A DNA stretch of 64,000 nucleotides from Candidatus Saccharimonadales bacterium. GTDB taxonomy: Bacteria; Patescibacteriota; Saccharimonadia; Saccharimonadales; UBA4665. The notes beneath the pieces were generated by a model, which had not been told where the DNA came from, searched no databases, and saw nothing but the letters and a program-made list of their open reading frames with translations. Every line of letters begins with the position of its first letter. The stretch's first letter is position 1. Location: NCBI GenBank assembly GCA_036388415.1, contig DASVRW010000002.1:248001-312000 (forward strand). The letters run 5' to 3'. The position numbers and the translations under genes are program-made. Below are positions 55,411 to 60,128 of this stretch, piece after piece.

Positions 55411-55485
<75 letters not shown>

Positions 55486-55519
55486 ATTGTGGATATGTGT
55501 AGAATTGTACAATAATAAA

Positions 55520-55604
55520 TGGTGCAGGGTGTAGGATTCGAACCTACGAACTCGGAGAGGGCAGATTTACAGTCTGCTGTGTTTGACCGCTTCACTAACC
55601 CTGC
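55520..55604 (-). tRNA. tRNA-Tyr (GTA)
   Basis: A class II tRNA with a long variable arm. Acceptor GCAGGGT/ACCCTGC, discriminator A, anticodon stem GCAGA/TCTGC with loop CTGTAAA (anticodon GTA), T arm GTAGG/CCTAC, encoded CCA. Confidence 0.95.
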
Positions 55605-55647
55605 ATATATAATTGTTAAACTTGCTCCGACAAGTATCTCGGTATGT

Positions 55648-55723
55648 TGGAGCCGACAGAGGGATTCGAACCCACGACCCGCTGTTTACAAAACAGCCGC
55701 TCTAGCCACTGAGCTATGTCGGC
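55648..55723 (-). tRNA. tRNA-Thr (TGT)
   Basis: Acceptor GCCGACA/TGTCGGC, anticodon stem GCTGT/ACAGC with loop TTTGTAA (anticodon TGT), encoded CCA. The T stem GTGGG/CCCTC contains one T-T mismatch. The order Thr(TGT)-Tyr-Thr(GGT) resembles the thrU-tyrU-glyT-thrT cluster of other bacteria. Confidence 0.94.
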
Positions 55724-57432: not shown

Positions 57433-58290
57433 TTAATCTTTCAGTAGTTCAGTAAACGCATCTGGAACTGGTGCGGTGAAGGTGCGCTCACTGCCGTTTG
57501 GCAGTATGAGCGTTAATTCTGCGGCGTGCAGGTACAGTCGATCGGCCGTACGTCCGCCGTACAGTCTGTCGCCAACAATCGGCCGTTTAAAATGCATAAG
57601 ATGTACACGCAGCTGGTGTGTTCGCCCGGTCGTCGGCCGCAGACGTAGCATGGTGTAGGTGTCGTTAGACATGATGCTTTCGTAGGCCGTGACCGCTGAA
57701 CGGCCATTAATACCAACTCTAAATGTTTGCGGTTTTTTAGGATTTCGTTCAATCGGCATATCTATAATCGCCTGTTCGGGATGCATAACGCCTTCGATAA
57801 CGGCCACATATTGCTTTTTGGCATGACGCTGTGAAAACTGCCGTTGCAGCCAATTGTGCGTGTCAGGTGTTTTGGCGCAGATCATGACGCCGCTTGTGTC
57901 GCGGTCCAGCCGGTGGACAATGCCAGCGCGTTCTCCCTCCATGCTTCGTAATCTGCCGCGCAGCCAGGTTGCAACCGTCGCCTCAGCGTGAAACGCGCCC
58001 TTGCTGTGTGTCAGCACCCCTGTCGGCTTGTTGACGACGACACAGTCATCATCCTCATATAGCACTTGCAAATCAATGCTCGGTATTTCATAAAACATGT
58101 CTTCGTCATGATCTATAGTGACTTTATCACCCGGCTTCATTTTGTAGCCGGCTTTTGTGACGACTACGCCGTTCACTGTTACTTTGCCATCGTCGATCAG
58201 CGTCGCTGCATAATTACGCGTTAAGGTCGGCATTTGCTCTACAACTCGTTGATCAAGCCGCTGGGCACGTGAGATTTCGAGATTACTCAT
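57433..58290 (-). CDS. RluA/RluD family pseudouridine synthase
   Basis: A 285-residue rRNA pseudouridine synthase. An S4 RNA-binding domain covers residues 10-60 (LDQRVVEQMPTLTRNYAATL). The catalytic domain has VNKPTGVLTHS and the active-site aspartate in GIVHRLDRDTSGVMI. TTGRTHQLRVHLMHFKRPIV is the second family motif. The arrangement is that of RluD, which modifies the helix 69 region of 23S rRNA; the exact site is not provable. Its ATG overlaps the trpS stop (ATGA). Confidence 0.92.
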   Translation of the reverse strand: MSNLEISRAQRLDQRVVEQMPTLTRNYAATLIDDGKVTVNGVVVTKAGYKMKPGDKVTIDHDEDMFYEIPSIDLQVLYEDDDCVVVNKPTGVLTHSKGAFHAEATVATWLRGRLRSMEGERAGIVHRLDRDTSGVMICAKTPDTHNWLQRQFSQRHAKKQYVAVIEGVMHPEQAIIDMPIERNPKKPQTFRVGINGRSAVTAYESIMSNDTYTMLRLRPTTGRTHQLRVHLMHFKRPIVGDRLYGGRTADRLYLHAAELTLILPNGSERTFTAPVPDAFTELLKD

Positions 58291-59330
58291 CGGTTGGTAG
58301 CTTGTCTGAGGCCGACGGCTTCCTGAGTGCGAAGTAGTACGCCACTTGCCTGCTGGCGCATCGCCGCTTCACTGGTTTCTAGTTTGGTTTGGATAGCATG
58401 TAGATCAACATTGTCGAGTTTGATTTGGAAATCTTCCAAAAATGCACAAATGGCATCGGCCACGGCAGATTTGAGCGGACCATACTGCGTTTGGCCTTCG
58501 TACTGCTGGCGTATATCTGCAATCGGTACGCCTGTGAAAAGCGATAGTAAGTCGAGCAGGTTTGTAATCCCAGGCTGTAGTGCTAAATCGTAGGTGATTT
58601 TGCCGATACTGTCTGTTGTCGCCGATAGTATTTTCCTGCGGGCGATTTCGCTGCTATCACTTAAGAATATGACGCCTCTGCCGGTTTCGTCTGATTTGCT
58701 CATCTTTTTGGTCGGATCGTGTAAGTCGCGGATTCGCAGGCCCTGATCTTTACCAAAGAAAGCATGCTGTTCCTTGACTGGTTTTGGAATGGTGTAGAGC
58801 TTGCCGAAGCGGTTGTTCATGCGCTCGGCAATATCACGAGTGAACTCGAGGTGCTGTGTCTGATCGTCGCCAACTGGAATATACGCCGCGTCGTATAATA
58901 ATATATCGGCAGCCATGAGTACCGGATAATTAAATAACCCGACGGACAGGCGGTCATCGCTAAGTTTGGCGGATTTATCTTTGAACTGTGTCATACGGCT
59001 CAGCTCGCCAAAACCGGCAAAACAATCTAATATCCACGCCAGTTCACTGTGCGCCGGTACGAAGCTCTGCCTATAGATATGTATATGCTCATTGTCCAGC
59101 GGCAGGCCGGCCGCGACAAACACTGCCAGATTATCTAAAATCTGATTATATAGTTTTGTGTGATCTGTTGGCGTTGTAAAGCTATGTAAATCAGGCACGA
59201 ACATATTTATCTGGTAGGCATCAGATTTCGTTGTAGCCATATCGACCAAGGGAAGCATTGCTCCGAGATAGTTGCCAATGTGTAAGTCGTTATTGGCGCG
59301 GAGGCCAGTCAATATTACGGGTTTTGTCAT
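58287..59330 (-). CDS. trpS: Tryptophanyl-tRNA synthetase
   Basis: A 347-residue class Ic synthetase. The HIGH-type motif is NDLHIGNYLGAMLP near residues 14-27, and KKMSKSDETGRG is the KMSKS motif near residue 215. VGDDQTQHLEFTRDIAERMN binds tryptophan and ATP. It is the first gene of trpS-rlu-holB. A TATACT box lies 10 nt before the ATG. Confidence 0.96.
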   Translation of the reverse strand: MTKPVILTGLRANNDLHIGNYLGAMLPLVDMATTKSDAYQINMFVPDLHSFTTPTDHTKLYNQILDNLAVFVAAGLPLDNEHIHIYRQSFVPAHSELAWILDCFAGFGELSRMTQFKDKSAKLSDDRLSVGLFNYPVLMAADILLYDAAYIPVGDDQTQHLEFTRDIAERMNNRFGKLYTIPKPVKEQHAFFGKDQGLRIRDLHDPTKKMSKSDETGRGVIFLSDSSEIARRKILSATTDSIGKITYDLALQPGITNLLDLLSLFTGVPIADIRQQYEGQTQYGPLKSAVADAICAFLEDFQIKLDNVDLHAIQTKLETSEAAMRQQASGVLLRTQEAVGLRQATNR

Positions 59331-59472: not shown

Positions 59473-59497
59473 AAAATCCGCCTGATTGGCGGATTTT
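59473..59497 (-). terminator. Terminator of the micro-transcript
   Basis: Stem AAAATCCGCC/GGCGGATTTT (10 bp, 5-nt loop) with a U-run on the minus strand (TTTTTATTTC). It begins 9 nt beyond the stop of the 30-residue reading frame. Confidence 0.92.
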
Positions 59498-59506
59498 CTG
59501 TGTATC

Positions 59507-59599
59507 TTACCGCTTGCGATAAGAAGATCGTACAGGAGAAACAGCCAAGCTCTTGCCGGTGTACACAAACCAATAAACGAAGTTAACTATATGACTCAT
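59507..59599 (-). CDS. Leaderless microprotein (30 aa)
   Basis: A 30-codon frame on the minus strand, beginning MSHIVNFVYWFVYTGKSLAV and ending in a basic stretch (RSSYRKR). Residues 4-13 are hydrophobic and aromatic and could touch a membrane. TTGACA-17-TATAAT, a perfect consensus promoter, stands with its -10 box exactly 7 nt before the ATG, and a terminator follows 9 nt after the stop. The frame thus fills almost the whole transcript. The unit could also be a small RNA of about 130 nt, but the fit of start and stop favours translation. I know no homologue. Confidence 0.6.
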   Translation of the reverse strand: MSHIVNFVYWFVYTGKSLAVSPVRSSYRKR

Positions 59600-59606
59600 T
59601 ACATCT

Positions 59607-59635
59607 ATTATAGATCACGATTCTTATGCTGTCAA
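59607..59635 (-). promoter_or_regulatory. Consensus sigma-70-type promoter
   Basis: TTGACA (59630-59635) and TATAAT (59607-59612), spacer 17 bp, on the minus strand. It is the only perfect consensus promoter I found in the window and drives the micro-transcript at 59473-59600. Confidence 0.85.
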
Positions 59636-59723: not shown

Positions 59724-60128
59724 TTAACGCTTGGTAAACTGACGCTGTTTGCGAGCGCCTTTGAGTCCAAATTTCTTGCGTTCTTTCTCGCGTGAGTCAC
59801 GACCGAGAAGATCAGCACGCTTCAAAGTTGTTTTGAGATTTTCGTCCATAACTGTCAAAGCTTTCGCAATGCCGAGACGAATGGCTTCGATCTGGCCATC
59901 GTGACCGCCACCACTCACATGAGCGGTGATAGTGTAGGTATTCTCAGTTCCCAAAACAGTAAACGGCTGGTTTAATTTTGCGAGTAAATACTTACTGTCG
60001 GCAAAATATTCTTCGGCAGATTTTTCGTTGACGTGGATAGTCCCTGTACCTTTGCTAATACGTACACGGGCCGTCGCGCTTTTGCGCCGGCCGAGAGCGT
60101 AGAAATAGTTATCAGTTTTATCAGCCAT
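59724..60128 (-). CDS. rpsI: 30S ribosomal protein S9
   Basis: A 134-residue uS9. ALGRRKSATARVRISKGTG, HVSGGGHDGQIEAIRLGIAK and the C-terminal RKKFGLKGARKQRQFTKR are all canonical. The basic tail ending in KR reaches the P-site tRNA. It follows rplM after 1 nt. Confidence 0.97.
   Translation of the reverse strand: MADKTDNYFYALGRRKSATARVRISKGTGTIHVNEKSAEEYFADSKYLLAKLNQPFTVLGTENTYTITAHVSGGGHDGQIEAIRLGIAKALTVMDENLKTTLKRADLLGRDSREKERKKFGLKGARKQRQFTKR

Follow-up and report, generated by a model that had tools for sequence, protein, structure and literature searches.

A probable transcription attenuator with a short frame, predicted to be leaderless and rich in aromatic codons, between rpsI and trpS in Patescibacteria

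The nearest published case to the locus described here is aroR-aroF of Corynebacterium glutamicum, in which a short leader peptide with Phe-Tyr-Phe precedes the DAHP synthase gene and control is described as ribosome-stalling attenuation; this species is also reported to have leaderless small mRNAs and a leader without a ribosome binding site (ilvBNC) (PMC4046766, PMC11802643). In Streptomyces, trp attenuators have been predicted before trpS, and the trp-operon leaders contain double or triple Trp codons (PMC1262725). In Sinorhizobium meliloti, the trpL RNA starts with the ATG of its leader frame, with leaderless translation possible. It responds to Trp only and controls trpE(G), and the terminated RNA is a small RNA for which functions in trans have been shown (PMC7298713). 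At pheA and pheST of Escherichia coli, Phe codons in the leader govern a gene of the aromatic pathway or one for an aminoacyl-tRNA synthetase (PMC11802643). These descriptions and the comparisons below follow excerpts of the cited papers.

We analyzed a unit located between rpsI and trpS in a 64,000-nucleotide stretch of DNA, here called the window. With a probability of roughly 87%, this unit controls transcription by ribosome-mediated attenuation, its leaderless leader peptide sensing aromatic aminoacyl-tRNAs. This reading is based on the conservation of the unit, its enrichment in aromatic codons, their fixed spacing, the independence of the core from the frame, covariation and gene context, and the unit is best explained as a known mechanism that takes a new, leaderless form with Tyr, Trp and Phe codons in Patescibacteria. 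As in aroR-aroF, a short leader carries aromatic codons and DAHP synthase is the putative target at some loci. The unit differs from the excerpted descriptions of aroR-aroF in its phylum, in the combination of Tyr, Trp and Phe in one leader, in a pairing region (region 2) that lies inside the ORF in any frame, in its fixed place between rpsI and trpS, and in that DAHP synthase or a small gene, together with trpS, often lies downstream. It shares the leader peptide, the terminator, the antiterminator and the trpS target with the classical trp attenuators, as these are excerpted, but has one Trp flanked by Tyr and Phe and no Shine-Dalgarno-like site in 51 of 55 leaders. As in S. meliloti trpL, the leader RNA is predicted to start at the ATG; unlike that system as excerpted, three aromatic amino acids would be read, and functions in trans are putative. 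The placement of aromatic codons before a pathway gene or a synthetase recalls the excerpted E. coli pheA and pheST, which differ in sensing a single amino acid and in gene setting. No such switch was found described in the open-licence papers searched on Saccharibacteria, Patescibacteria and the candidate phyla radiation, which does not prove its absence.

The features of the unit and its neighbours in the window are as follows.

59724..60128, minus strand: rpsI, the upstream neighbour that marks the conserved place (conserved gene order)
59630..59635, minus strand: -35 element TTGACA, exact, and exact in all five genus genomes
59607..59612, minus strand: -10 element TATAAT, exact, with a 17 nt spacer to the -35 element
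59507..59599, minus strand: leader peptide ORF of 30 codons plus stop, frame MSHIVNFVYWFVYTGKSLAVSPVRSSYRKR
59561..59581, minus strand: putative aromatic sensor codons F7, Y9, W10, F11 and Y13 (F/Y/W enrichment, fixed spacing to the core)
59532..59548, minus strand: region 2, UUGGCUGUUUCUCCUGU, within the ORF, the putative 5' side of the antiterminator (UUGGC, UUUCU, UGUA; fold and family covariation)
59486..59499, minus strand: region 3, the terminator 5' arm and loop start, also the putative 3' side of the antiterminator (AGAAA, GCCAA; fold)
59473..59497, minus strand: intrinsic terminator AAAAUCCGCC-AAUCA-GGCGGAUUUU plus U tract (10-bp hairpin)
58287..59330, minus strand: trpS (TIGR00233 trpS, 3.4e-80)

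A cluster of three tRNA genes was also observed at 55414-55723 on the minus strand, downstream of the trpS operon.

The first-pass annotation had described the exact TTGACA-17-TATAAT promoter as the best in the window, and this was confirmed; it is the only match there with 0–1 mismatches. Such matches occurred at a mean of 0.50 per window after shuffling, with at least one in 42 of 100 shuffles, and the promoter on its own thus proves little. Unlike the promoter match alone, the recurrence of the unit goes beyond chance: a search of related genomes at the rpsI-trpS gap, which the annotation had suggested, recovered it in all five genomes of the genus. The proposed leaderless 30-codon frame, with a terminator hairpin starting approximately 9 nt past the stop codon, is likewise supported by the sequence and conserved in all five. 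The ATG at 59599 lies 7 nt past the -10 element on the minus strand, a distance also found in 5/5 genus genomes, and the mRNA is predicted from this position to be leaderless. Among 55 relatives, a -10-like hexamer was found 4–11 nt ahead of the start in 41, and a Shine-Dalgarno-like site in only 4. A terminator is present in all 55, since terminators were required for inclusion.

The relatives were collected in several ways. A DNA-only search of 60 relatives gave two clear matches, both within the genus and in the rpsI-trpS gap; because only these two were certain, a peptide profile was needed. A profile of three peptides recovered 5/5 genus genomes along with weaker family and order matches in the same place; with a profile of 14 peptides, E<=0.01 was reached in 40 of 392 genomes of the order. 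From the latter matches, two were left out because they lie inside other genes (G070, G298) and one because it is cut by a contig end (G130). The trpS gene was present in 185 of 196 genomes, and inspection of the region upstream of it in 60 genomes without a peptide match added 18 leaders. Of the 55 leaders in the final table, 37 stem from the peptide search and the other 18 from the regions upstream of trpS; as these 18 were chosen partly by complementarity, the key tests were redone with only the 37. One genome (G177), with no complementarity to the chosen terminator, was excluded from the column covariation tests and from the alignment (A4), which covers 50 of 54 listed stretches. Genus relatives in public records are UBA5148 and UBA5152, named Candidatus Saccharibacteria. 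No relative was found in the viral contigs searched.

The part of the frame ahead of a GGCGG-like core is strongly enriched in aromatic residues. In the 55 leaders, F, Y and W make up 231 of 850 residues (27%) ahead of the core, as compared to 6.8% in the downstream proteins, corresponding to enrichments of 10.8-fold for W, 3.9-fold for F and 2.8-fold for Y; H is not enriched. W occurs in 54/55 leaders, and a cluster of the Tyr-Trp-Phe type in all but one, the exception (G072) having FFF, i.e. Phe only, followed further downstream by another leader that has YWF. The spacing between the last aromatic codon (counting codons at least 12 nt from the core) and the core amounts to 17 nt in 36 leaders, 18 in 12, 19 in 4 and 20 in 3. 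The window genus has two inserted codons, and the spacing of 17 nt is restored by extra aromatic codons. The core itself is read in three frames (39, 12 and 4 leaders), as Ala-Val, Gly-Gly or Trp-Arg, and beyond the start and the aromatic cluster the peptide varies in sequence, length and even reading frame. The occurrence of the core in any frame, together with its pairing and covariation with the terminator, argues that the RNA is conserved here rather than the C-terminal peptide. In the first half of the frame it is thus the codons that are kept, and in the second half the RNA.

Several analyses support an alternative pairing between region 2 and the terminator. Region 2 paired with the 5' arm of the terminator in the same leader at a mean of -17.15 kcal/mol, as compared to -15.25 (sd 0.30) with the terminators of other genomes, the native value being reached in 0 of 5000 permutations. 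Shuffling of region 2 gave p<=0.05 in 50/55 leaders with a mean z of -3.52, whereas the control, the 5' half of the ORF against the terminator arm, gave a z of -0.30. With the 37 peptide-chosen leaders only, 1 of 5000 permutations reached the observed value and the shuffles gave p<=0.05 in 33/37. The stretch that spans region 2 through the terminator loop gave a better fold than its dinucleotide shuffles in 53/55 leaders (p<=0.05). Two positions ahead of the core lies a base whose covarying partner is in the terminator loop and stays unpaired in the terminator itself (the two being paired in 37/54 vs 23.3 expected, sd 3.2, 0/5000; Fisher p 0.0002, G-C vs T-A); this covariation was also found in the set of 37 (23/36 vs 14.8, p 0.0018). 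For the base adjacent to the core, covariation was found in the full set (48/54 vs 43.0, p 0.0014) but not in the set of 37. Disjoint pairs of genomes nearest in the trpS tree gave 8 concordant, 0 discordant and 4 unchanged cases.

In the A4 alignment of 50 leaders, 86.0% of the cells of the antiterminator helix were paired vs 81.7 (sd 0.8; 0/500), helices slid out of register reaching at most 55%, and the covariation score was 0.162 vs 0.112 (sd 0.011; 0/500). Compensatory changes are exemplified by AGCGG/CCGCT (G144), GGACGG/CCGTCC (G150), CGGCC/GGCCG (G092) and GGCGAT/GTCGCC (G211). RNAalifold returned no base pair for the 50-sequence alignment; the model derived from it (R1) was thus sequence-only and was not used. 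When folded with a ribosome on the stop codon, 54/55 leaders formed the terminator and none the antiterminator. With a ribosome on the last aromatic codon and the 3' arm included, 24 of the 55 formed the antiterminator and 30 the terminator, so that a purely thermodynamic switch is not clearly supported. Since the full stretch often folds as the terminator in the stalled state, switching would have to be kinetic: the order of synthesis would matter, as the antiterminator could form before the 3' arm exists.

The copy in the window is among the weaker ones. Its core is GGCUG in place of GGCGG, and its short duplex between region 2 and the terminator arm (-9.7, z -0.7) is no better than shuffles. 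A longer antiterminator fold (UUGGC:GCCAA, UUUCU:AGAAA, UGUA:UACA; -17.0 kcal/mol) encloses an inner hairpin, which accounts for part of its z of -2.84, reached by 5/200 shuffles. In this genome of 1.14 Mb, trpS is the sole gene remaining downstream of the leader, with none between it and the terminator, and it has its own -10-like TATACT at 59346-59341 (minus strand), just ahead of its ATG. Because of these two features, cis control may have weakened in the window, where trpS would be the only possible cis target, and any dependence of trpS on read-through may be tempered by its own -10. No second copy of the leader was found in the genome above E 5, the covariance model finding one copy, and the genome search gave no match to PF00793 DAHP synthase, to prephenate dehydratase (PDT) or to trpB.

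Past the terminator, most relatives have a gene that carries a Shine-Dalgarno site and starts after approximately 20–45 nt, and then trpS, which is present in 53/55 fetched stretches and has a -10-like hexamer ahead of it in 48 of these 53. DAHP synthase was found at 11 of the 55 loci, ten with PF00793 (G009, G019, G026, G038, G067, G069, G072, G074, G077, G179) and one with PF01474 (G139), and prephenate dehydratase (PF00800) at two (G036, G040). The PF00793 matches of G026 and G077 are below the curated score. Two proteins that resemble DAHP synthase below the Pfam cut-off (L105, L112) may be divergent or repurposed. Most of the other downstream genes encode small proteins, without a Pfam match among those tested.

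Among the small proteins encoded after leaders, eight (L167, L108, L127, L106, L172, L094, L145, L083) were weakly similar to one another around a D-x-RSP-type motif by phmmer, with no Pfam match for those tested, and these could be a fast-changing aromatic-responsive family. A CxxC-type motif is present in six others (L092, L091, L117, L102, L086, L096), in many cases with one more Cys behind it (e.g. ECKNC, DCGNC, SCANC, RCQNC). In several genomes, paired attenuators were observed close together, mostly each ahead of its own gene (L172, L205, L085/L202, L095/L203, L145/L204, L093/L201). In two distant genomes, genes for deacylases of the AstE/AspA type (PF24827) follow an aromatic leader (L116, L178); these enzymes perhaps release aromatic amino acids from acylated forms.

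Three other explanations were considered. The annotation had favoured a microprotein with a function of its own, expressed for its product from the strong promoter, and the conserved start, promoter and aromatic cluster, together with 53–57% identity of the window peptide to two genus members, would agree with this. Across the 55 relatives, however, only the start, the aromatic cluster and the spacing to the RNA core are fixed, the length, C-terminus and frame of the peptide changing while core and spacing stay; Pfam gave no match for the peptide, and genes of aromatic metabolism lie downstream at 13/55 loci. We therefore consider a functional microprotein highly improbable. The terminated RNA of approximately 130 nt put forward in the annotation is supported, not as a stand-alone micro-gene but rather as a cis-regulatory leader of the downstream genes. 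Compensatory base changes with a broken frame, named there as a sign of an RNA gene, were indeed found in the frame's second half, but the proposed mechanism requires translation of the first. An arrest peptide of the TnaC type, in which free tryptophan is sensed by the nascent chain inside the ribosome tunnel and stalling occurs on the stop codon, could account for the one nearly invariant Trp and the AVCSV stretch conserved in many leaders. This stretch is missing where the frame differs (GG or WR replaces AV), and the spacing between Trp and the stop codon is variable, in contrast to the nearly constant one between the last aromatic codon and the core. With a C-terminus variable in frame and length, no nascent-chain motif was found at a fixed distance from the stop, and other genomes use FFF, HH or WW, all of which makes arrest of this type very hard to credit.

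It is also unlikely, if a shade less so, that a small RNA or peptide acts in trans, besides or instead of control in cis, like rnTrpL and peTrpL of Sinorhizobium. Action in trans is known for the leaderless trpL RNA, according to the excerpted report (PMC7298713), and would suit a window genome that lacks the first gene after the terminator and whose trpS has its own -10; against it, the complementarity of region 2 to its own terminator exceeds that to the terminators of other genomes.

The attenuator reading agrees with the remaining features of the unit, i.e. a short ORF, predicted to be translated, with codons for the regulated amino acids; an intrinsic terminator between this ORF and the structural gene; an antiterminator that uses the terminator 5' arm and could be blocked by a ribosome, weaker in the window copy taken alone; and downstream genes in the metabolism or charging of aromatic amino acids. 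A T-box is not indicated, as the Rfam scan of the window found five tRNAs only and no T-box covariance match at the locus at E<=10. The Rfam models Trp_leader (18.7 vs a curated 41 bits) and Phe_leader (22.0 vs 55 bits) remained below their scores at the locus, and these weak matches were rejected as terminator look-alikes.

From the sequences we infer the leaderless start, the stalling, the switching and the direction of regulation. RNA polymerase would start at or next to the AUG, and the leader would be translated as a leaderless mRNA. With charged Trp-, Tyr- and Phe-tRNAs, the ribosome would traverse the ORF and cover region 2, and the terminator would form and release an RNA of approximately 130 nt. 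If one aromatic tRNA is short, the ribosome would pause on the aromatic cluster approximately 17 nt ahead of region 2, which would then be free to pair with the terminator 5' arm and loop, and transcription would continue into trpS in the window and, in relatives, into DAHP synthase, prephenate dehydratase or small proteins and then trpS.

With a covariance model that includes the antiterminator helix, matches were found in 104 of 294 genomes of the order (E<=0.001) and in 35 of 286 genomes of the phylum (E<=0.01), 29 of the latter lying outside the order. Thirteen of these 29 matches were inspected, and four showed a clear agreement between codons and genes: SFNWWTT ahead of trpB and trpS (G586), NYFWFYF ahead of prephenate dehydratase and dehydrogenase (G645), YFSFYF ahead of chorismate mutase-prephenate dehydratase (G487), and HH ahead of a nucleoside hydrolase and hisS (G648). 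No clear agreement was seen for eight inspected leaders, the downstream gene being either uncharacterised or unrelated (G500, G567, G465, G569, G510, G458, G559, G440), and one match (G419) looks like chance. In some leaders outside the order, the letters of region 2 and terminator are changed yet complementary, e.g. GGGAGG/CCTCCC in G569. A second match in G645 (L214) has four Leu codons in its leader, MKEKIAEVVSLLLLGNGIPRRF, and a terminator that matches; it is possibly a leucine sensor.

Within the order, one genome (G285) has a YWF leader before DAHP synthase and a Phe-only leader before chorismate mutase-prephenate dehydratase. Leaders with runs of F were found near 5 of 25 PDT loci (L221, L227, L242, L244, L245) and WW leaders near 2 of 14 trpB loci (L253, L257), hits that are illustrative only, since the filter selected aromatic runs; no convincing leader was seen at the remaining PDT and trpB loci. 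A blind leader scan ahead of PDT and trpB genes gave several obvious chance ORFs.

More tentatively, and with slightly less than an even chance of being right, leaderless attenuators of this design may be a phylum-wide, codon-swappable kit and a main amino-acid sensor of Patescibacteria, whose genomes are small. This kit would include a three-aromatic version ahead of DAHP synthase or trpS as well as Phe-only/pheA, WW/trpB and HH/hisS versions, with a core free to shift relative to the frame as long as its spacing to the last sensor codon is kept. Regulation is poorly known in Patescibacteria and Saccharibacteria, which are mostly uncultivated partners of other bacteria. If the attenuator reading is right, it would provide a sensor of aromatic supply that can be read from sequence and that marks genes responsive to shortage, including small uncharacterised ones. 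It would also mean that the classical switch works with leaderless leaders, in which the RNA begins with its start codon, and with one leader that integrates three amino acids.
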